From Gemmatimonadaceae bacterium (GTDB lineage: Bacteria > Latescibacterota > UBA2968 > UBA8231), in the NCBI GenBank assembly GCA_002726335.1, contig PBSR01000213.1, positions 1 to 8,781 on the forward strand: DNA of 8,781 nt. The letters are read 5' to 3'. Shown here piece after piece: positions 1 through 8,781 of this stretch. Both the position numbers and the translations under genes were made by a program. Numbering within the stretch: the stretch's first letter is position 1; the number at the start of each line of letters is the position of its first letter. The notes under the pieces were generated by a model. The model ran no database searches, was not told where the DNA came from, and was given only the letters and a program-made list of their open reading frames with translations.

Positions 1-611
1 CCGCCGGCCACCACCCCATCACACAGCCCCTGTTCCGTGGCCCCGTGGATGTGATGTTCGCCGGACTGGGACACGAGGAGGCCTGCATGGCGGTGAAGAC
101 GGCACCGGAGGCGTCGGACCGGATCCTGGACGGCTGCGTCGAGCTGTTCAACGAAATGGCGACGGCGCGGCTCACGGGGACACCCGAGTTCGAGGGCGGC
201 TATCTGTCCAGCTTTGGCATCTGGGCGCCGGGCACCGTCGTGCGGACACAGGTGGACAATGTCTCGATGCTGTCACCCGAGACGTACCGTGAGCGCATCC
301 TGCCTTTCGACCGCAAGGTCTTCGCTGCCTTCGACGTGACCCTCATCCACCTGCACTCCTGCTGTCTGCACATCATCGACGACCTGGTGCTTGAGGAGGA
401 CCTCGACTGCATCCAGGTCTCCATCGACTACCCCGGGGGACCGCTGGCCGCCGATGTCATGCCGCAGCTGCAGCGTGTTCTCGAGCACAAGCCGTTGATC
501 GTCACCGGGCCGGTGTACCAGGCTGAATTGGATGAACTGAAGGAATTGAAGCCTGCGGGCGGCCTGTGCCTGCAAGTGCAGGTCGTGCCTGATGATGAGA
601 GAACGATATAG
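1..611 (+). CDS. UROD-like / MtaA-type methyltransferase family protein, 5'-truncated
   Basis: C-terminal part of a UROD-superfamily protein; about 203 residues are visible. The frame stays open from base 3 with no stop, and the sequence before the GTG at 45 already reads like the family, so the true start lies left of the window. Visible family marks are a segment resembling 'LSPETYRERILPFDRKVF', which corresponds to the SP-x-x-[FY]-R-E block, then 'LIHLHSCC', which carries the H-x-C pair used for zinc in MtaA/MtbA. After that come 'SIDYPGGP' and 'HKPLIVTGPV', and a normal-looking C-terminus ending in TAG. The usual glycine after the cysteine is replaced by a second cysteine (H-S-C-C). It faces the minus-strand amidohydrolase with only 24 bases between the stop codons. 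It is the first of five UROD-like paralogues here. Substrate and partner are unknown; a cobamide- or zinc-dependent methyl transfer role is inference. Confidence 0.85.
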   Translation, partial: AGHHPITQPLFRGPVDVMFAGLGHEEACMAVKTAPEASDRILDGCVELFNEMATARLTGTPEFEGGYLSSFGIWAPGTVVRTQVDNVSMLSPETYRERILPFDRKVFAAFDVTLIHLHSCCLHIIDDLVLEEDLDCIQVSIDYPGGPLAADVMPQLQRVLEHKPLIVTGPVYQAELDELKELKPAGGLCLQVQVVPDDERTI

Positions 612-647
612 ATCTGTCGTCAGTGCCGGCGCAGATCAGGTCTGATC
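611..647. terminator. Candidate bidirectional terminator: nested inverted repeats between convergent genes
   Basis: Two overlapping inverted repeats occupy the convergent junction. GATCTG at 611-616 pairs with CAGATC at 632-637, with a 15-base loop. GATCAG at 634-639 pairs with CTGATC at 642-647 across two bases and covers the stop codon of the minus-strand amidohydrolase. There is no T-tract on either side, so this is not a classic intrinsic terminator. The position between two converging stop codons is the main support. Confidence 0.3.
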
Positions 648-1445
648 CGGGAACCAGACGCGCAGAGGTGTGGCCGAGAGGGTGGCCTCGCGTTCGCCGT
701 CACTGCCGCAGATGTCGTCACGCATCACGGCAAAGTGATCGGTCCAGGTCAATTCGGGGTGCCACTTTTCGGCGGGGAAGTTGCCTCCCCACATGCACCG
801 GTCCGGGCTGAAGGCTGCCAGCAGTCGCCGGCCAATGGCGATGTACGCTTCCTCCCGGTTCGCCCAGAACGACATCTTCAAGTGCAGGTTGTCGAAACCG
901 GCCAGGTCCAGTACAGCCCTTTCGACGTCGGGGCGGTCGGGCGACTGGTAACCGCAATGGTCGAGACAGAAGGTCAGTTCGGGGAACTCGGCCAGCAGCC
1001 GGGCGGCATCGGCGTAGAACTCGGTGCCGTTGGCGTGGATATTGACCACCAGTCCCAGATCGCGGGCGCGGGAGCACAGGGCCACGGATCCGGTATGGTG
1101 GAAGGACCCTCCACCCTTTGGGTACTCCAGCCGCAGGCCACGTACGCCGCCGTCGGCGAGCCGTGCCAGTTCATCCGGTGAGGTCGGCGCATCAGAGGGC
1201 AGGTTGCAGACCCCCACCATCCAGCTGCGGTGGTCGGCCACGGCGTCGACCAGCAGACGGTTGTCGTGACCGTACTGGCTGAAGGTCTGCACCGCTACCA
1301 CATGAGAGATCCCGGCCTCCTGCCGACTGCGCTCCAGGTGCTCCACCGTTCCGGCGCCCGCCGGGGGGCGGCTGGGATCCGGTGTGGTGGGGTAGCGGCT
1401 GTCATCCCCGGAGTAGAGATGGGCATGGGTCTCGACGATCGTCAT
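636..1445 (-). CDS. Amidohydrolase family protein (Amidohydro_2, COG3618-like TIM-barrel metal hydrolase)
   Basis: Predicted 269-residue cytoplasmic metal-dependent hydrolase of the Amidohydro_2 group, which acts on lactones, decarboxylation substrates and similar small molecules. Length is typical. The N-terminal strand-1 motif is T-H-A-H (His7, His9). A histidine on the next core strand lies in 'VVNIHANG' (His137), followed by 'CLDHCGY' (His163) and 'NLHLKMS'. The C-terminal block 'CMWGGNFPAEKW' has Asn222 where many relatives have the catalytic Asp of the G-S-D motif; an Asn here (G-S-N-F-P type) also occurs in some COG3618 members. The ATG at 1445 is chosen because the HxH motif follows at once. 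The longer open frame upstream overlaps the end of the UROD-like gene and has no family similarity. A weak AAGG precedes the start, 13 bases after the upstream stop, so it is probably co-transcribed and translationally coupled with that gene. Substrate unknown; a lactone or other ring-opening step would fit the context. Confidence 0.88.
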   Translation of the reverse strand: MTIVETHAHLYSGDDSRYPTTPDPSRPPAGAGTVEHLERSRQEAGISHVVAVQTFSQYGHDNRLLVDAVADHRSWMVGVCNLPSDAPTSPDELARLADGGVRGLRLEYPKGGGSFHHTGSVALCSRARDLGLVVNIHANGTEFYADAARLLAEFPELTFCLDHCGYQSPDRPDVERAVLDLAGFDNLHLKMSFWANREEAYIAIGRRLLAAFSPDRCMWGGNFPAEKWHPELTWTDHFAVMRDDICGSDGEREATLSATPLRVWFPDQT

Positions 1446-1458
1446 GGTGGCGCCGCCT

Positions 1459-2676
1459 TCAATAGGAGTAGGCCCTTGCCGTCTCGTACAACGCCAGGAT
1501 GTTCTCCACCGGCACGTCGGCCTGGATGTTGTGAATCGGGTTGACGACGCAGCCGCCTCCCGGGGCGAAGATGTCGAGACACTCCTGGGCCTCGCGGCGT
1601 ACTTCGGCCGCTGAACCGAAGGGGAAGGTATTCTGCGTGTTGATGCCGCCACCCCAGAAGACGAGGCGGTCGCCGTAGGTCTCCTTCATCCAGCGCCGAT
1701 CCATGCCGGCCGCACCCCACTGTACTGGATTGAGGCAGTCGACGCCCGCATCGGCGATGTGCCCGATAAGGTCGGGGATGGAGCCACAGCTGTGGATCCA
1801 GACCTTGACGTCGGGGAACTCGTGTACGGCGTCACACACCAGCTTCCACGCCGGCGCCAGGATGTCGCCGAAGAGGGAGGGCCGGAAGACCTCGCGGTCC
1901 TGCGTGCCGTAGTCGGCGCCGCTGAGGATGACGACCTCGATGTACTCGCCGACGGCACCAAGGTACTGGCGGGCGCGAGCGGCACTGGCTTCACACTGGG
2001 CGAGCATGTACTCGCGACAGTGGTCGCGATCCAATGACATCTTCATGCCGAACTGGTACAGACCGCCGTAGCCGCCGGGCAGATTGAAGGGCGGGGTAAC
2101 CACGAGGGCACGCTCGGTGGACTCATACAGCGCCTTGACCTTGGCCCGTTCGCGCTCGAGGAAATCGCTTTCCAGCGGCCCCGGAACGGTCCAGTCCTTC
2201 TGGTCGATGTGGGGCACCTCGAAGGTCTCGGTGAGATTGGCGACATTGATGGCGTCGAAGTAGCGCCCCCCTTCGGGCATACGCGCCACAGGGTCCGTCC
2301 ACCCGGGCCCCTCACCGACGAGCAGCGAGCCATCGTTCGTCACCTGCGGTCGGAAGCCTTCCGGCACGTGGAAGGTCTGGTCACCCCAGAAGGTGAACTC
2401 CTTCCAGCCATTGCGGTCCAGGCCGTAGTTCATGGTGTCCGCCGGCACCATGGCGAAGTCGCAGCCCAGGGCATCGAGCACCGGCTCCTCAACCTCGGCC
2501 AGCATCTGGAACAGATCGAATACGCGGGTCTGGCCGCCGTCGATGCCCAGCGCCTGCTTCAGCGCCTGGTAGGTCCAGGCCACCGTTCCCGTCATGCGGG
2601 TGGCGCCCAGGTCGATGGCGGGTCGATCGGCTTCCTCGAAGTTGAGAATCTTGCGAACACGTTCGCGGGAGTTCAT
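1459..2676 (-). CDS. UROD-like / MtaA-type methyltransferase family protein (H-S-C-G copy)
   Basis: Predicted 405-residue TIM-barrel protein of the UROD superfamily. It opens with the family N-terminus 'MNSRERVRKILNFEEADRPA' (compare x-x-R-E-R-V ... D-R-x-P). Further on come 'GADYGTQ' (residues 253-259, equivalent to the D-D-x-G-x-Q loop) and 'RPSLFGDILAPAWK'. Next are 'VWIHSCGSIPDLI' with His295 and Cys297 (the H-x-C zinc pair of MtaA/MtbA), 'CLNPVQW' and 'LVFWGGGIN', and finally 'VVNPIHNIQADVPVEN'. In true MtaA the last zinc ligand is a C-terminal Cys; here His382 or the nearby Cys376 would have to serve. The RQAGRY motif of HemE is absent, so a heme-pathway role is unlikely. The ATG at 2676 has GAGG six bases upstream (2685-2682) and fits the paralogues. 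The longer upstream frame runs antisense through the next gene and is rejected. First gene of the minus-strand unit with the amidohydrolase; function inferred only at family level. Confidence 0.9.
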   Translation of the reverse strand: MNSRERVRKILNFEEADRPAIDLGATRMTGTVAWTYQALKQALGIDGGQTRVFDLFQMLAEVEEPVLDALGCDFAMVPADTMNYGLDRNGWKEFTFWGDQTFHVPEGFRPQVTNDGSLLVGEGPGWTDPVARMPEGGRYFDAINVANLTETFEVPHIDQKDWTVPGPLESDFLERERAKVKALYESTERALVVTPPFNLPGGYGGLYQFGMKMSLDRDHCREYMLAQCEASAARARQYLGAVGEYIEVVILSGADYGTQDREVFRPSLFGDILAPAWKLVCDAVHEFPDVKVWIHSCGSIPDLIGHIADAGVDCLNPVQWGAAGMDRRWMKETYGDRLVFWGGGINTQNTFPFGSAAEVRREAQECLDIFAPGGGCVVNPIHNIQADVPVENILALYETARAYSY

Positions 2677-2730
2677 AATGACCTCTTCAGGGAGTGGCAG
2701 TCTGTTTCTAGCTGTCTGGTCGTCCCGGTC

Positions 2731-2759
2731 ACCATACCGAGACGCACGTCTCCGGGCAA
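2731..2759 (-). promoter_or_regulatory. Candidate sigma70-type promoter of the minus-strand UROD-like/amidohydrolase unit
   Basis: On the minus strand, TTGCCC (2759-2754) and TATGGT (2736-2731) are separated by exactly 17 bases. Each hexamer matches consensus at four of six positions. A start site near 2724 would leave a leader of about 48 bases before the ATG at 2676. The spacer contains the whole GAGACG/CGTCTC inverted repeat, so a protein bound there would compete with or remodel RNA polymerase. Sequence match only. Confidence 0.4.
2739..2752. promoter_or_regulatory. Candidate operator 1: inverted repeat GAGACG-CA-CGTCTC
   Basis: Perfect 6-base inverted repeat with a two-base centre in the divergent intergenic region. 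It lies within the 17-base spacer of the candidate minus-strand promoter. Its half-site GAGAC/GTCTC recurs in the second repeat 32 bases to the right, which suggests paired binding sites for one dimeric regulator. No regulator gene is visible in the window. Confidence 0.4.
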
Positions 2760-2770
2760 GGGCAGGGCCC

Positions 2771-2785
2771 GGTCTCCCTGAGACC
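2771..2785. promoter_or_regulatory. Candidate operator 2: inverted repeat GGTCTC-CCT-GAGACC
   Basis: Perfect 6-base inverted repeat with a three-base centre, ending eight bases before the Shine-Dalgarno region of the plus-strand UROD-like gene. It uses the same GTCTC/GAGAC half-site as the first repeat but in the opposite arrangement. Its centre is about 32.5 bases (close to three helical turns) from the other. It could also form a short hairpin in the leader RNA of the plus-strand unit. Confidence 0.4.
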
Positions 2786-2804
2786 TCACAAGCGGAGAGG
2801 GGCC

Positions 2805-4019
2805 ATGCAGGAACGCACCTATCTACGCGACCTGGCACAGCACTACGTCGAGATCTGTGAGCGGCCCGAGCAAGCCGAACGACGACAGCTCTGGCGTCAG
2901 CACAACAGTCTGCAGCAGACGCGAACCCCGATCTATATCCGGGCCTTCGCCTGGCAGGAGATGGCGGAGGCTGGACCCAGGTGTCAGGATCCCCTCTGGC
3001 GACAGTATGAGGACTTCTTCCGCCGCCACCTGTTCTGGGATAGCCTGGGCGACGATTCCGTCTTCGAGCCATGGGTGACGGTACGGGCCGAACACGTCTG
3101 CAGCGGCTGGGGTGTGGTGGCGGCGCGCCGACACGCCGAGTACGCCCGTGGCTCGTTCAAGGTCGACTATCCGATCAAGGCGCCGGAAGACGTGGATCAG
3201 CTGCGACCGCCACGGCACGAGATCGACGAAACCAGAACGGCGGCGAAACTGGCCCGGGTGCAGGATTGTCTGGGTGACCTGATCGACATCGACGTGGATC
3301 GTGGTCCGGCGTACTGGACCTGGGGGGCCGATCTGTCCACCGATCTGGGATACCTGCGCGGCATCGAGCATTTTATGATGGACATGACCGATCGTCCCCA
3401 GTGGTTGCACGAGTTGCTGGGTTTCATGTCGGAGGGAGTGCAGCGGGCCCAGGGGCAGGCGGAGGAGGCCGGCGACCTGGGGATGAGCGACCACTATAAC
3501 CAGGCGATGGCCTATGCCGAGGAACTCGACGATCCGGCGGCGAACCGGCAGGGCGTGAACCGGCGACAGCTGTGGTGCTTCACCGCGGCGCAGGAGTTTA
3601 CCGGAGTGTCGCCGCAGATGCACGAGGAGTTTCTGTTGCGCTACCAACTGCCCATCATGGAGCAGTTCGGTCTTGTCGCCTACGGATGCTGTGAGGACCT
3701 GACGGAGAAGATCGACATGCTGCGGCAGATCTCGAACCTGCGTCGAATCGCCGTATCTCCTTTCGCCGATGTGCGCCGTTGTGCCGAACAGATCGGGCGA
3801 GACTACGTGTTCAGCTATCGGCCCAGTCCGACCGACATGGTCGGCTACGGTCTCGATGAACAGCGGGTGAAGGAGCAGCTGCATCAGGATCTGACGGCCT
3901 GCCGGGATTGCTGCGTCGACATCACGTTGAAGGACGTGGAGACCGTGGAAGCCGATCCACAGAGGGTGCGGCGGTGGGTGCAGCTGTGCCGTCAGGTGAT
4001 CGACGAGGTGTCCGCATGA
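2805..4019 (+). CDS. UROD-like superfamily protein, divergent (Y-G-C-C at the zinc-motif position)
   Basis: Predicted 404-residue protein, the most divergent UROD-like member here. The N-terminal third is unlike the others: no R-E-R-V opening, but a charged start and 'IYIRAFAWQEM', then 'SFKVDYPIKAPEDVDQL', which resembles the central region of UROD-like proteins. 'FTGVSPQMHEEFLLRYQLPIMEQFGL' corresponds to the S-P-x-x-F-x-E helix. Next comes 'VAYGCCEDLTEKI', where Tyr293-Gly-Cys295-Cys296 stands where relatives have H-x-C-G, and then 'IAVSPFADVRRCAEQIG' and a C-terminal domain. Cys295/296 and Cys365/369/370 could still offer thiol ligands, but the His is gone. The ATG at 2805 has a strong purine-rich site (GGAGAGG, 2794-2800). 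First gene of a plus-strand unit whose next gene starts 10 bases after this stop. HemE motifs are absent. Family membership is inferred from motif order and context; function unknown. Confidence 0.82.
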   Translation: MQERTYLRDLAQHYVEICERPEQAERRQLWRQHNSLQQTRTPIYIRAFAWQEMAEAGPRCQDPLWRQYEDFFRRHLFWDSLGDDSVFEPWVTVRAEHVCSGWGVVAARRHAEYARGSFKVDYPIKAPEDVDQLRPPRHEIDETRTAAKLARVQDCLGDLIDIDVDRGPAYWTWGADLSTDLGYLRGIEHFMMDMTDRPQWLHELLGFMSEGVQRAQGQAEEAGDLGMSDHYNQAMAYAEELDDPAANRQGVNRRQLWCFTAAQEFTGVSPQMHEEFLLRYQLPIMEQFGLVAYGCCEDLTEKIDMLRQISNLRRIAVSPFADVRRCAEQIGRDYVFSYRPSPTDMVGYGLDEQRVKEQLHQDLTACRDCCVDITLKDVETVEADPQRVRRWVQLCRQVIDEVSA

Positions 4020-4023
4020 GAGG
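4018..4023 (+). promoter_or_regulatory. Shine-Dalgarno site supporting a TTG start
   Basis: GAGAGG begins inside the stop codon of the upstream UROD-like gene and lies six bases before the TTG at 4030. The ATG at 4016 reads only five codons before a stop, so the TTG is the start this site serves. The overlap with the stop codon points to translational coupling. Confidence 0.65.
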
Positions 4024-4029
4024 CAACCG

Positions 4030-5178
4030 TTGAATTCCAAGGAACGCGTCACCGCCGCCATCAACCGCCAGCCCGTAGACCGGGTGCCGCTGGGCTTCTA
4101 CGCCGTCGACTGTGATACGGTGGGGCGCGTCCTGGGGCGCAGCACTTTCGTGCGCGACAAGGTGGAGAGTCAGATCGCGCTGTGGGAGGGCCGTCGTGAT
4201 GAGCTGGCAGCGGGGTTGAAGGCCGATGTTGTCGATTTCTACCGTCGACTCGAGTGTGCCGATCTGCTGCTGCCGAAGGAGGCGATGCTGCTGCCGCCGG
4301 CCGACTACGAGCCGCTGCGGCCGCGCGCCATCGGCGAGGATCGCTGGGAGGACGACCGCGGTCGCGTCTACCAGGCGTCGCGCGGAGCCAACGAGATCCA
4401 GTGCGTCCACGATCCTGCGGCGGGTCAGCGGACCTGGTCGGTAGCGGACTTCGAAGACGACATACCGCCCCAGCCGCCGGATGCCAGTGTCTACGAGGTC
4501 CTCGACCACGTCATCGCCGAACTCGGAGACGAGCGCTATGTGGCCTCGACGACGGGGGGGATCACGGCACTGTCCCTGCTGGGGGGGACCGAAGAGGGGC
4601 TGGTGCTGCACGCGTTGCAGCCAGAGGTGATCGCGGCCGCCAATCGTCGGTCGGTGACCCGGCAGAACGCCCTCGACATACACTGCATACGACCAGGCGC
4701 CGCCGGCGTGCTGATGGAACAGGACATGGCCGGCTCCAACGGGCCGCTGGTGTCACCGGAGATGTTCCGTGAGTTGAGCTATCCGTATCTGAAAGCACGT
4801 ATGCAGCATGTCAGGGAGTCTGGTGTCGAGCAGATCATTTTCCACAACTGCGGCAACAACATGCCCCTCATGGAGATGTTCATCGACTGCGGCGTCGACT
4901 GCTACCAGTCGCTGCAGACGACGGCGGGCATGGAGGTGGGGCTGCTCAAACAGAGCTACGGCCAGCACCTGTGTTTCTGGGGTGGTGTCTCGGTAGAGCT
5001 GCTCATCGACGGCACGCCGGACGAGGTGCGCGCCGACGTACGCAAGGCCATGGAGAGAGGGGCGCCGGATGGCGGTTTCATCCTGGGTCCCTCGCATTCG
5101 GTTGCCTTCGGCACGAAGTACGACAACTTCCTGGCCTTCCTCGACGAGTTCGACCGCTGCCGCGATCACTACTGCTGA
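4030..5178 (+). CDS. UROD-like / MtaA-type methyltransferase family protein (H-N-C-G copy, TTG start)
   Basis: Predicted 382-residue UROD-superfamily protein. The TTG start is chosen because it yields 'MNSKERVTAAINRQPVDRVP', almost the same N-terminus as the minus-strand paralogue ('MNSRERV'), and has a well-spaced Shine-Dalgarno site. Family blocks in order: 'TTGGITAL' (174-181); 'MEQDMAGSNGPLVSPEMFRE' (229-248), which corresponds to the D-D-x-G-x-x-x-P-x-x-S-P block; 'IIFHNCGNNMPLM' with His272 and Cys274 as the H-x-C pair; 'LCFWGGVSVE'; and 'GGFILGPSHSV' (His356) near the C-terminus where MtaA has its third zinc ligand. This copy keeps the two best-conserved putative zinc ligands. No RQAGRY motif, so not HemE. 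Two runs of seven G (4554-4560 and 4581-4587) lie in the gene, but the frame and family similarity continue through both. Second gene of the plus-strand unit. A methyl-transfer role is inference. Confidence 0.9.
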   Translation: MNSKERVTAAINRQPVDRVPLGFYAVDCDTVGRVLGRSTFVRDKVESQIALWEGRRDELAAGLKADVVDFYRRLECADLLLPKEAMLLPPADYEPLRPRAIGEDRWEDDRGRVYQASRGANEIQCVHDPAAGQRTWSVADFEDDIPPQPPDASVYEVLDHVIAELGDERYVASTTGGITALSLLGGTEEGLVLHALQPEVIAAANRRSVTRQNALDIHCIRPGAAGVLMEQDMAGSNGPLVSPEMFRELSYPYLKARMQHVRESGVEQIIFHNCGNNMPLMEMFIDCGVDCYQSLQTTAGMEVGLLKQSYGQHLCFWGGVSVELLIDGTPDEVRADVRKAMERGAPDGGFILGPSHSVAFGTKYDNFLAFLDEFDRCRDHYC

Positions 5179-5190
5179 ACCCGATGCGGT

Positions 5191-5225
5191 GAAGCGGCTT
5201 GCCATGGCGCCATGGCCGGGGCTTC
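5191..5225 (+). repeat. Large stem-loop with a 16-base perfect palindrome in the intergenic gap
   Basis: The 106-base gap between the second and third plus-strand UROD-like genes holds a perfect palindrome, GCCATGGCGCCATGGC (5201-5216). It is flanked by GAAGC (5191-5195) and GCTTC (5221-5225), which also pair, giving a long imperfect RNA stem with a 5/4 internal loop. Only CTTCTT follows, so intrinsic termination would be weak. It may instead attenuate transcription, protect or process the mRNA, or bind a dimeric protein. Confidence 0.5.
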
Positions 5226-5284
5226 TTAAGGCCATCCTCCCGGCACGGCCGCGAGGGTTCGACAGCAAGACAGGAGACCAGCAC

Positions 5285-6346
5285 ATGAGCATGACCTCAC
5301 GCGAGCGCATCCGCTGTGCCCTGATGGGGCAGCCCCACGACAGAGTTCCCTACCAGGACGCCTTCTGGCGTTCGACGATGATCCGCTGGCAGCGGGAGGG
5401 CCTTCCGGCAGATGTCGATCTCGGCGAGCATTTCGGTTGCGAAATGGCCCGTATCGGTGGCGACTACTCCCTCCAGTTTCCTGAACGTACACTGGAGGAA
5501 ACGGATCGCTACAGGGTGTATGTCGACAGCGACGGCGCCACCCGCAAGGTGATCGCCATCGGTGACGACTGGACGCCGCACTGGCTGGAATTCACCGTCA
5601 ACTCTTCGGACTCCTGGCAGCAGCATCGGGACCGACTGACCTACAACCCGTCCCGCGTGCCCTCGCTGGACGGTTACCGGCGGGCGCGGCAAAAGGATCA
5701 GTTCGTCGCCTTTTCCGCCCATGCCTCGTTCCACCCCACATGGCACAAGATCGGTCTCGAGACCATGCTGATGGCCATGCTGGAAGAGCCCGAGTGGCCG
5801 GCGGACATGATGGCCATGCACGCGCAGCTGATCATCGATATCTACGAGGGTATGAAGACGGCGGGCTTCGAGTTCGACGGGGTCTTTCTGGCCGACGACC
5901 TGGGCTACCGCACGGCGCCGTTGATCTCGCCCGCCATGTACCGCGAGCAGATCATGCCCCACCACCGCCGTGTGTGCGACCACTTCGCCGCCGACGGTCT
6001 GCCCATCGTGCTGCATTCAGATGGGGATGTACGGCCTCTGATCCCGTCTTTTCTGGAGGCCGGCTTTACCGGTCTGCACCCACTGGAAGCCAAGGCCGGT
6101 CTCGACGTGGGGGCTCTGCGCGCCGAGCATGGTGACCGCCTGGCGTTGTTCGGCGGCATCGACGCGACGAAACTGGCCGGTACCGAGGAGGAGGTCGTGG
6201 AGGAGGTGCGCACCAAGGTAGCAGCCGGCAAGGAGGGTGCCGCCGGTTATCTGTTTCACACCGATCATTCGGTGCCCAGTGATGTGTCGCTGAGCAACTA
6301 CCAGCTGGCACTGCGCACCCTTGCGGAGTGTGGCGCCTACGACTGA
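5285..6346 (+). CDS. UROD-like superfamily protein (H-S-D-G copy, zinc Cys replaced)
   Basis: Predicted 353-residue UROD-superfamily protein. The N-terminus 'MSMTSRERIRCALMGQPHDR' is the family R-E-R-[IV]...D-R-V-P opening. The ATG at 5285 is chosen because AGGAG lies eight bases upstream (5272-5276); the ATG at 5291 is a possible alternative. The longer open frame to 5069 overlaps the previous gene and is not family-like. Blocks in order: 'FLADDLGYRTAPLISPAMYR' (201-220), the D-D-x-G...S-P-x-x-[FY]-R motif; 'IVLHSDGDVRPLIP' with His244 and Asp246; 'GLHPLEAKAGLDV'; 'LALFGGID'; and 'YLFHTDHSVP'. Asp246 sits where methyltransferase-type relatives have the zinc Cys, so this copy belongs to an H-S-D-G branch and probably does not bind zinc as MtaA does. 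Third UROD-like gene of the plus-strand unit, 13 bases before the PhyH gene. Function unknown beyond family. Confidence 0.9.
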   Translation: MSMTSRERIRCALMGQPHDRVPYQDAFWRSTMIRWQREGLPADVDLGEHFGCEMARIGGDYSLQFPERTLEETDRYRVYVDSDGATRKVIAIGDDWTPHWLEFTVNSSDSWQQHRDRLTYNPSRVPSLDGYRRARQKDQFVAFSAHASFHPTWHKIGLETMLMAMLEEPEWPADMMAMHAQLIIDIYEGMKTAGFEFDGVFLADDLGYRTAPLISPAMYREQIMPHHRRVCDHFAADGLPIVLHSDGDVRPLIPSFLEAGFTGLHPLEAKAGLDVGALRAEHGDRLALFGGIDATKLAGTEEEVVEEVRTKVAAGKEGAAGYLFHTDHSVPSDVSLSNYQLALRTLAECGAYD

Positions 6347-6359
6347 GGCGGAGCGGATC

Positions 6360-7160
6360 ATGACGCAGCCACTGCCACTTGTCCACTATCCCGACGTGGC
6401 GGATCAGGCGCGGGCCGTCCGCGACGACGGCTACGCCTACTTCCCGGGTATCCTGAGCCCGGAAGAGGTGGCTGAACTGCGGGGGGTGATGGATCGGCTC
6501 GAGCCGGTGGAGGAATACTTCGACAGCGAGCGCACCGCTGGCCAGGGTGAGTTCCCGACGAAGGTGCTCAACAACGCCTTCAACCGCGATCCGCACCTGC
6601 TGAGCTTTACCGATCGACCGGGTGTGATCGAACTGGCCGAGGCGATCCACGGGGAGGATGCCCACGTCATCGGCATGACGATCTGGCTCACCGGCCCTGG
6701 TCGGCCGCCGCAGACGCTGCACGCCGACTGGCAGCCGCTGACGATTCCGGAAGATGTCATGGAAGACGAGCGCGTGCAGATTCCGGTGTTCATCTCCACG
6801 ATGCACTACTACCTCGACGACATGTACGAAGAACTGGGACCGACACACTTCGTTCCGGGCAGCCACCGCGCCGGTCGTCCGCCCGACGGCGACACGACGT
6901 TTCATGGCAGGCACGAGCAGGCCATCCTGTGTCAGGCCGGCGATGGCCTGCTCTTCCGTTCCGAGGTCTGGCACCGGGGCACGGCCAACACCAGTCAGCA
7001 GATGCGGTACCTGCTGCAGGTGCACTACGCCCGGCGCATGATCACGCAGAAGTTCCCGCCCTACCCGCACCGATTTCGCCTCGGCGAAGGCATCTACGCC
7101 GCTGCCAACCCGCGGCAGCGGCGTCTTCTCGGCGAGCACCGGAAAAGCAACTACGACTGA
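6360..7160 (+). CDS. Phytanoyl-CoA dioxygenase (PhyH) family Fe(II)/2-oxoglutarate oxygenase
   Basis: Predicted 266-residue cytoplasmic non-heme iron oxygenase, a typical length for the bacterial PhyH family. The N-terminus 'VRDDGYAYFPGILSPEEVAEL' is the classic PhyH opening. The double-stranded beta-helix carries the iron triad: His121 and Asp123 in 'TLHADW' and His205 in 'EVWHRGTAN'. Arg216 follows His205 by 11 residues, the same spacing as His264 and Arg275 in human PHYH, and is the likely 2-oxoglutarate salt-bridge residue. 'THFVPGSHRAG' is the usual loop between them. All active-site residues are present, so it should be an active hydroxylase, but the substrate cannot be read from the sequence; phytanoyl-CoA itself is unlikely. 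The ATG at 6360 has GGAG (6350-6353) six bases upstream, 13 bases after the previous stop. Last gene of the plus-strand unit, convergent with glnK 11 bases away. Confidence 0.92.
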   Translation: MTQPLPLVHYPDVADQARAVRDDGYAYFPGILSPEEVAELRGVMDRLEPVEEYFDSERTAGQGEFPTKVLNNAFNRDPHLLSFTDRPGVIELAEAIHGEDAHVIGMTIWLTGPGRPPQTLHADWQPLTIPEDVMEDERVQIPVFISTMHYYLDDMYEELGPTHFVPGSHRAGRPPDGDTTFHGRHEQAILCQAGDGLLFRSEVWHRGTANTSQQMRYLLQVHYARRMITQKFPPYPHRFRLGEGIYAAANPRQRRLLGEHRKSNYD

Positions 7161-7171
7161 GGCTCTGCCGG

Positions 7172-7510
7172 TTACAGTGCCGTCTCGCCCGTCTCGCCGG
7201 TGCGGATGCGGATGACCTCCTCCACGGGAATCACAAAGATCTTGCCATCGCCGATGTTGCCCGTCCCGGCAGCCTCCCTAACGGCCGTGATGGCCTGTTC
7301 GGCGAGGCTGTCGCCGACGACGACTTCGATCTCGAGTTTCGGTGTGAAGTCGATCTGGTACTCGGCGCCGCGGTAGATCTCCTTGTGTCCCTTCTGCCGG
7401 CCGAAGCCCTTCACATCGCTGACGGTCATGCCGACCACACCAAGGGCGCTCAAGGCTTCCTTCACCTCGTCCAGGGCACTCGTTCGTACGATACACTTGA
7501 GCAGTTTCAT
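7172..7510 (-). CDS. glnK: Nitrogen regulatory protein PII (GlnK)
   Basis: 112-residue PII signal-transduction protein, full length for the family. It senses ATP/ADP and 2-oxoglutarate and, in the GlnK subgroup, plugs AmtB when nitrogen is sufficient. Signature blocks are intact: 'GMTVSDVKGFGRQKGHKEIY' into the T-loop, with Gln39 (2-oxoglutarate/Mg-ATP ligand) and Tyr51, the uridylylation tyrosine, in 'YRGAEYQIDF'. Lys58 follows. The second signature is 'GNIGDGKIFV' with Lys90, and 'RIRTGE' supplies Arg101 and Arg103. Tyr51 suggests control by a GlnD-type uridylyltransferase encoded elsewhere. Start ATG at 7510; AGGAGA (7520-7515) overlaps the last base of the amtB stop codon, so translation is likely coupled to amtB. 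Named glnK rather than glnB because of the amtB linkage. A 9-base tandem repeat (7181-7198) encodes Gly-Glu-Thr twice near the C-terminus. Confidence 0.95.
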   Translation of the reverse strand: MKLLKCIVRTSALDEVKEALSALGVVGMTVSDVKGFGRQKGHKEIYRGAEYQIDFTPKLEIEVVVGDSLAEQAITAVREAAGTGNIGDGKIFVIPVEEVIRIRTGETGETAL

Positions 7511-7519
7511 CAGTTCTCC

Positions 7520-8781
7520 TTACATGGCGTAGCCGGACTCACCATGGTCGGCTACGTCGAGTCCATTGGTTTCTCCTTCGGCACTGACGCGCAGACCGAC
7601 GGTGGCATCCAGAACTTTCAGAATCACGAAGGTGGCCGCCATGCAGTAAATGGCGATGGCCACACAGGCGAAGATTTGCACGCCGAGCTGGCGGCCGATG
7701 TCGAGGCCCTCCACGGCCCCGCCAAAAACGGCGGAGGCGAAGATACCGGCCAGGATCGTGCCGACGAGGCCGCCCACACCGTGCACACCGACGACATCGA
7801 GGGCATCGTCGTACCCCAGACGGGATTTCAGGATGACGGACGCCCAGTAGCAGATGCCGCCGGCAGCCAGACCGATGGCGATGGCCCCGACGGGTCCGAC
7901 GTTCCCGGACGCGGGTGTAATACCGGCGAGGCCGGCGATGGCGCCGGTGGCGAAACCGACGGCCGTGGGTTTACCGAAGCGAATGCGCTCGATAACGATC
8001 CAGGTGAGGGCAGCCACACAGGGCGAGATCTGAGTCACCACAACTGCCATGGCAGCCTGGCCGTTGGCGGCCAGAGCACTACCACCGTTGAAGCCAAACC
8101 AGCCGACCCACAACATGGCCGTACCGGCAAGCGTCATGGGCAGGTTGTGTGGTGGCGTGACCTTCTCCGGGTATCCCTGACGTTTGCCGACCAGGATGCA
8201 GGCCACCAGGGCGGAAAAGCCGGCGGTCACGTGCACGACGATGCCACCGGCGAAGTCGAATACACCAAGGTCGGCCAGGAACGCGCCCGCCCCACCCCAC
8301 ACCATGTGCGCCGTCGGGAAGTAGCACAGGGTCACCCACAGACCGGTGAACCACAGGACGGCGGAGAACTTCATGCGCTCGGCGAAGGCGCCGATCATCA
8401 GTGCCGGCGTGATGATGGCAAAGGTCAACTGGAAGGCAAAGAACGTCAGCTCCGGGATCGTGCCCGACAGCGACGCCGGCCCCACGCCTGACAGAAACAG
8501 TTTGTCGATGCCACCGACGAAGGCGGCCAGGCCGCTCTCGCCCTCCACCATGCCAGTGGTGTCAAAGGCAAGACTGTAACCGTAGATCGTCCACAGCACC
8601 GTGACGAGGGCGGTGATGGCAAAGCACTGAGTGAACAGGGACAGGACGTTTCTCGATTTGACGAGACCCGCGTAGAACATGGCGAGTCCGGGTATCGTCA
8701 TGAACAACACGAGTGCGGTGGCGGTGGTGATCCACGCCGTGTCACCCGTATCCAGGCCGTCCTGGGCATAGGCCATCCCGG
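7520..8781 (-). CDS. amtB: Ammonium transporter AmtB, 5' end beyond the window
   Basis: Inner-membrane ammonium channel of the Amt/MEP/Rh family; at least 418 residues with about 11 transmembrane segments after a signal peptide. Counting from the Met at 8776, the key residues are present: 'FQLTFAIITPALMIGAFAERMKFS' with the Phe gate region (113-115); 'AHMVWGG' (Trp160, E. coli Trp148); 'FDFAGGIVVHVTAG' with Asp174 and His182; and 'DVVGVHGVGG' with His332. His182 and His332 are the pore twin histidines. The tail 'GLDVADHGESGYAM' matches the conserved C-terminal region that contacts GlnK. The Met at 8776 is probably internal: the frame remains open to the window edge, and 'AYA' followed by Gln looks like a signal-peptidase I site, so the start and signal peptide lie beyond the edge. 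The stop is TAA at 7522-7520, nine bases before glnK. Gene order amt then PII is the reverse of E. coli glnK-amtB. Confidence 0.95.
   Translation of the reverse strand, partial: GMAYAQDGLDTGDTAWITTATALVLFMTIPGLAMFYAGLVKSRNVLSLFTQCFAITALVTVLWTIYGYSLAFDTTGMVEGESGLAAFVGGIDKLFLSGVGPASLSGTIPELTFFAFQLTFAIITPALMIGAFAERMKFSAVLWFTGLWVTLCYFPTAHMVWGGAGAFLADLGVFDFAGGIVVHVTAGFSALVACILVGKRQGYPEKVTPPHNLPMTLAGTAMLWVGWFGFNGGSALAANGQAAMAVVVTQISPCVAALTWIVIERIRFGKPTAVGFATGAIAGLAGITPASGNVGPVGAIAIGLAAGGICYWASVILKSRLGYDDALDVVGVHGVGGLVGTILAGIFASAVFGGAVEGLDIGRQLGVQIFACVAIAIYCMAATFVILKVLDATVGLRVSAEGETNGLDVADHGESGYAM

Follow-up and report, generated by a model that had tools for sequence, protein, structure and literature searches.

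Why should one short stretch of bacterial DNA carry five UROD-like genes, each encoding a different motif at its active site? The stretch in question is 8,781 nucleotides long and comes from a Gemmatimonadaceae bacterium (contig PBSR01000213.1). We refer to the whole of it as the window, and to the five genes as U1 to U5. Sequence comparisons place the locus as a fragment of a larger array, seen in Gemmatimonadetes bacterium SI074_bin69 (G001), the closest useful relative. We tentatively read that array as a large set of substrate-specific UROD-superfamily methyltransferases served by a shared corrinoid and folate hub, a reading that comes near to an even chance but does not reach it.

Three of the genes match the Pfam URO-D family (PF01208). 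These are U2 (1459–2676, reverse strand; E 1.5e-14), U4 (4030–5178, forward; E 2.5e-24) and U5 (5285–6346, forward; E 7.2e-18). Pfam URO-D gave no match for U3 (2805–4019, forward) or for U1 (3–611, forward), which encodes the C-terminal 202 residues of a UROD-fold protein, its 5' end being truncated by the window edge. A profile search in a set of 169 proteins recovered both (U3, E 1e-10; U1, 1e-7; full-length U1 orthologue, 2e-11). The nearest U1- and U3-type rows were left out of that profile, with L001_1487, a distant sister of U1, retained. Predicted structures of U3 and of a full-length U1 homologue have the UROD fold (predicted local distance difference test scores, 93.5 and 95.1). By sequence, neither U3 (searched to E 1) nor the U1 fragment (searched to E 10) found a UROD relative in PDB. 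The fold is thus assigned by Pfam for U2, U4 and U5, by profile and its own model for U3, and by profile and a homologue model for U1. The reading frames are intact, and the initial annotation was right to place five UROD-like genes in one locus. U3 has 2,555 relatives, U5 has 821 homologues at E up to 0.001 and U1 has 159 relatives. No Pfam domain was found on U3 or on the best 120 of its 2,555 relatives. Acetophenone carboxylase offers a further, weak structural match to the U1 homologue, through its epsilon subunit (9fou); the literature on that enzyme gave nothing useful toward U1 function.

We aligned 51 UROD-like proteins from the window, G001 and locus L001 using MAFFT. Two G001 proteins with a full His-Cys-Cys set, C101_211989 and C4_141855, served as references. 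The motifs H-S-C-G of U2 (1783–1794, reverse), H-N-C-G of U4 (4843–4854, forward) and H-S-D-G of U5 (6014–6025, forward) align with the His-x-Cys of both references. The third ligand position is Cys in both references. Conversely, it is His in U2 (1531–1533), U4 (5095–5097) and U5 (6266–6268), and also in the G001 HemE. Hence, the full His-Cys-Cys set of MtaA occurs in none of the five. U2 and U4 have H-C-H, U5 has H-D-H, U1 has H-x-H and U3 has Y-G-C.

The U1 site reads H-L-H-S-C-C-L-H (348–371, forward), of which the invariant part is H-x-H-S, found in 121 of 121 relatives. Two MAFFT alignments place H-L-H on the ligand columns. The H-S-C-C first proposed as the zinc motif of U1 is therefore two residues out of register and is rejected; of the 121 relatives, 58 have Cys at the first of its two Cys positions and 79 at the second. 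In the U3 model, a strand formed by residues 290–293 ends with Y293 and is followed by G294, C295, C296 and E297, so that Y-G-C-C lies at the end of the equivalent strand. The MAFFT alignment places Gly under the His, with Y-G-C-C one residue off. Judged by the model, Y-G-C-C would fit the MtaA zinc position, as first proposed. Y293-G-C-C-E297 is encoded at 3681–3695 (forward) and is present in 120 of 120 relatives. It and a conserved K376-D377 (3930–3935) are invariant or nearly so over 58 rows extending down to 30% identity. In relatives of U5, the first His and the third-position His are found in 120 of 120, and the Asp in 119 of 120. These counts cover the best 120 of 2,555 relatives for U3, the best 120 of 821 for U5, and the best 120 of 159 plus one G001 row for U1. 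Fixation in U2 and U4 rests on their tree clade rows, described below. The fixed states in U1, U3 and U5 relatives indicate that the variants reflect neither chance nor decay. Thus, the proposal that all five motifs occupy the MtaA zinc position stands for U2, U4 and U5 by alignment and for U3 by model, and fails for U1. Similarly, some copies do keep the first two ligands (H-x-C in U2 and U4) and another swaps one (H-x-D in U5), but the third MtaA ligand had been overlooked and no copy has a complete set.

Pairwise identity among the five proteins is just 12–24%. In a tree of 94 proteins, each falls in its own starred clade, alongside related proteins of other genomes. Within a clade, the first two ligand positions do not vary; the clades hold 10 rows for U1, 16 for U2 (three being second copies of the same gene), 11 for U3 (where the third ligand column is not reliably aligned), 4 for U4 and 8 for U5. 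Sister rows differ at the second position, with H-D-H beside U4 (support 93), H-C-H beside U5 (86) and H-D beside U1 (98). Hence, switches happen between neighbouring clades. The tree is the product of a quick search and has long branches; 32 of its 90 forks are weak (support below 80) and its deep joins are not trustworthy. By sequence, U1 to U5 are old paralogues in five clades, each with its own fixed signature. This supports the earlier suggestion of sub-functionalisation.

The G001 locus L009 contains U2, U3, U4 and U5 in the same order and orientation as the window, at 88, 82, 88 and 89% identity, respectively. The U1 orthologue (82%) lies 14 kb further on. All five are among 17 UROD-like frames in 25 kb, at about 132,330–157,350 of contig C4. 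This is a six-frame count; a first count of open reading frames, which kept only the longest of overlapping frames, gave 16. One array member, C4_141855, keeps the full His-Cys-Cys. The amt-glnB pair of the window is 83% identical to a side-by-side pair at C4:114877–116490, which is 17 kb from U5 in G001 as against 0.8 kb in the window. The shared pair indicates that the window locus and the G001 array occupy the same chromosomal place.

G001 encodes its stand-alone corrinoid proteins on contigs C101 and C66, away from the array contig. The C101 corrinoid protein adjoins the His-Cys-Cys URO-D protein C101_211989 and the sole RACE match of the genome. On C66 (93.9–102.2 kb; L077) there is a group comprising FTHFS, a URO-D protein with H-D-D, a fusion protein, DUF1638, a B12-binding protein and a URO-D protein with H-S-D-G...H. 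The fusion is 899 residues long and has Pterin_bind, MTHFR and MTHFR C-terminal (DUF5981) domains. From its gene content, this hub reads as a compact one-carbon (C1) oxidation module. We compared 25 genomes of G001's order, 16 with 1–3 URO-D matches and nine, here called expanded, with 6, 10, 14, 25, 32, 39, at least 47, at least 48 and at least 51 (counts for G002, G054 and G056 being lower bounds). Relatives of the fusion (E below 1e-60) occur in seven, namely the expanded G001, G002, G052, G054, G055 and G056, and G043. Thus, the fusion is present in six of nine expanded genomes and one of 16 others (table 6, 3, 1, 15; Fisher p 0.003, uncorrected for relatedness or for draft assemblies). 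In the stretches read, a corrinoid protein, DUF1638 or hub-type URO-D gene is nearby in G002, G052, G054, G055, G056 and G043. In G002, G054, G052 and G055 (L116, L117, L118 and L119), the hub corrinoid protein has a second, very divergent UROD-like protein close by. The three of these that are in the tree read H-L-C-G...N, and none was seen in the G001 hub. The C1-transfer or demethylation role first suggested for the locus therefore gains indirect support, from a hub on another contig of G001 and its co-occurrence with the expansion, although the window itself holds no partner genes.

Taken together, these data suggest that the larger cluster probably serves to demethylate a wide variety of molecules. 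At the mouth of its barrel, each enzyme would take up its own methylated substrate and activate the leaving group with residues particular to it (His-Cys-His for U2 and U4, His-Asp-His for U5, His-x-His for U1 and Tyr-Gly-Cys-Cys-Glu for U3). In U2, U4 and U5, the second ligand may be matched to the leaving group. The methyl group would then be passed in trans to a corrinoid protein encoded elsewhere, at the C66 hub or on C101. Reading the route from gene families, the pterin-binding/MTHFR fusion and the formate-folate ligase could oxidise it, from corrinoid to methyl-folate and on to methylene- or formyl-folate. A published pattern assigns His-Cys-Cys to sulfur or selenium and a carboxylate or non-ligand to oxygen (available text of PMC10418091). 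Because a carboxylate second ligand goes with oxygen in that pattern, U5 would act on an O-methyl substrate. The chemistry of U1 and U3 is the least certain among the five.

Several observations weigh against this reading. The family scan of window genes found no corrinoid protein, activase or folate enzyme, and a scan of four other G001 array genes, one of them without a family, likewise found none. The B12-binding_2 matches of G001 are on C92, C101, C66 and C29, and its RACE match is on C101; the array is on C4. B12-binding_2 matches, MetH included, number 1–4 in all 25 genomes of the order. The hub fusion was not found in the expanded G053, G057 and G060, and G043 has the fusion with just one URO-D match. 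Not every hub genome showed the complete gene order: FTHFS was seen next to the fusion in just G001 and G052, and the G055 fusion is on another contig. Of the five, U1 and U3 least resemble the methyltransferase motif. The best PDB sequence match of U5 is a HemE, not MtaA. HemE is not known to bind a metal at its third-position His, so that the presence of this His in U2, U4 and U5 does not demonstrate a metal site. CdmB, a methyltransferase of the UroD superfamily, is active without zinc (available text of PMC13222342); equally, for that reason, ligand loss does not exclude methyl transfer.

An equally serious alternative, which we consider quite possible without thinking it probable, is that the expanded UROD-like proteins, and especially U1 and U3, for the most part work without a corrinoid. 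They might be lyases, decarboxylases or isomerases that depend on a metal or on acid-base catalysis, or folate-type methyltransferases, with sugars or osmolytes as substrates. The related MetE fold methylates without a corrinoid. Gene counts bear on this. B12-binding_2 matches average 3.2 in expanded genomes and 2.0 in the others (Spearman 0.54, p 0.005), and this rise of about one is far smaller than that of URO-D. Such a flat profile is equally expected if most of the enzymes do not depend on a corrinoid. In 35 further U3-bearing genomes of several phyla, a sample biased by having been selected for U3, median counts are 27 for URO-D (from 1 to at least 43 per genome, many counts being lower bounds) and 1 for B12-binding_2. 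U3 itself conserves Y-G-C-C-E and K-D in place of the zinc triad. Conversely, the triad of U5 is also that of the hub's H-x-D...H URO-D protein, which adjoins a corrinoid protein; furthermore, methyl transfer and HemE activities were the only ones found for the superfamily in the literature searched. The 39 G001 proteins in our ligand tally come from the analysed regions, and differ from the 39 Pfam URO-D matches of that genome. G037 (locus L037, Spirochaetes HyVt-370) has 18 B12-binding_2 and at least 43 URO-D matches; the other 36 genomes scanned have 1–4 of the former.

Neighbours in related clusters are also relevant. An alpha-L-fucosidase and a xylose-isomerase-like protein lie among UROD-like arrays (L074:1109–2437; L001:9087–9986). 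They are a hint at sugar substrates and count towards the corrinoid-independent alternative. A hydantoinase/oxoprolinase A gene lies within the G001 array (L074:9212–11257), with a similar frame, seen by eye, on G002 contig C750 (L112:8231–10000). On G001 contig C61, an MTTB-family (trimethylamine methyltransferase) gene adjoins UROD-like genes (L078:5064–6488).

A broader reading, put forward as tentatively as the corrinoid-independent one, spans both. Here, bacteria of several phyla with tens of UROD-fold enzymes, partly in arrays, with clade-fixed triads and few corrinoid proteins, would have a general catabolic toolkit. Either one hub would serve dozens of interchangeable demethylases or, for families like that with Y-G-C-C-E, the chemistry would be corrinoid-independent and new to the fold.

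It is improbable that the five proteins form a hetero-oligomer or act sequentially on one substrate. The arrangement of the genes might suggest it. U3, U4 and U5 point the same way, 10 and 106 bases apart, U2 diverges from a shared intergenic region, and the order and orientation of U2 to U5 are kept in G001. Other genomes tell against it. U2 is found at 83% identity in G002 and G060 and 73% in G056, and U4 at 84% in G060 and G002; the best U5 match in G002 and G060 is 46%, or none at E 1e-40. Conversely, G052 and G054 have U5-family proteins at 57–59%, and their best U2 and U4 matches are 33–37%. In G002, U2 and U4 are adjacent and divergent, and U3 is on a different contig with another UROD-like array. 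Besides L001 and L009, we inspected 35 U3 loci in the available flanking DNA, whose length varies. No other UROD-like frame accompanies U3 in 24; one does in 11, in seven of them within 3 kb. This scatter indicates that the five are modules of a repertoire, not a fixed complex. Hence, neither an obligate set nor the hetero-oligomers on one pathway first envisaged are supported.

That U1 to U5 are extra HemE-like tetrapyrrole decarboxylases is very unlikely, despite the shared fold, and we reject it. The HemE of G001 is taken to be another gene, a full-length URO-D match at E 2e-105, and the Arg and Asp motifs of the HemE active site are not aligned in U2 to U5, where the N-terminal alignment is weak. 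Least credible of all is that the unusual motifs are signs of decay or lost activity. U1 and U3 do lack canonical ligands, but the frames are intact and, apart from a single exception, the signatures are fixed in the 120–121 relatives examined per gene (U1, U3 and U5), which leads us to reject this reading.

The remaining genes of the window are of other families. An Amidohydro_2 family hydrolase gene (636–1445, reverse; PF04909, E 1.9e-33) lies between U1 and U2, directly downstream of U2. A PhyH-family dioxygenase gene (6360–7160, forward; PF05721, E 1.5e-20) starts 13 bases past U5, possibly in one operon with it. Neither has a match above 45% identity in the G001 and G002 cluster stretches compared. 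The glnB (P-II) and amt genes (7172–8776, reverse), identified by the family scan of window proteins, are flanking anchors outside the system. In the divergent U2/U3 intergenic region (2677–2804), a 15-base block (2727–2741) is identical in G001, much of the surrounding region having diverged. Among the loci compared, it recurs only at the orthologous place in G001, and it is a possible, putative operator. A promoter and terminator scan of 2600–2900 gave a single 9-of-12 match, and tRNA and Rfam scans of the window found none.

Genome annotation usually labels URO-D genes as heme enzymes, a role that the tens per genome seen here can hardly all have. Should these be demethylases that share a hub, uncultivated bacteria may draw much of their carbon from methylated compounds, a source so far overlooked. 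Otherwise, unknown chemistry lies in this fold, in families the size of the U3 family. Variation in the ligands is already in print, as are multi-paralogue clusters: zinc ligands vary in the superfamily, with Cys swapped for carboxylates in O-methyltransferases (available text of PMC10418091). The H-C-H of U2 and U4 is not mentioned in the Results or Discussion of that paper. Arrays this large with so few corrinoid proteins were not found in the open-licence literature searched, which is no proof of being undescribed, and searches for UROD expansion by phylum name or polysaccharide returned nothing relevant.

How, then, does the locus compare with known systems? With HemE it shares the fold and third-position His, but the G001 HemE has no H-x-C/D motif. 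With MtaA and MtbA (PDB 4ay7) it shares the fold and the position of the His-x-Cys motif. 4ay7 is the best PDB sequence match of U2 (E 0.006) and U4 (E 5.5e-8), and the best structural match of the U1 model. By contrast, U5 (by sequence) and U3 (by structure) match HemE better, and all five lack the His-Cys-Cys set. The NCBIfam MtaA, MtbA and MtaA-CmuA models score U2, U4 and U5 at 36–57 bits against cut-offs of 235–244, and gave no match for U1 (a fragment) or U3. Type 1 mlp clusters also combine several UROD-superfamily paralogues of different lineages. Unlike the window, they carry a corrinoid protein and a Ram/RACE activase, and their enzymes have His-Cys-Cys except for several Mlp1, as far as the available text goes (PMC10418091). 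The UroD-superfamily O-demethylases and CdmB (PDB 9rui) have relaxed or absent zinc ligands. U4 is a weak sequence match to CdmB (E 1.4e-4), and U5, by sequence, fits H-x-D...H, a putative metal site. The available text describes a cdm gene cluster that includes its partners (PMC13222342), and none lies beside U1 to U5; those corrinoid and folate partners do, however, resemble the hub of G001.

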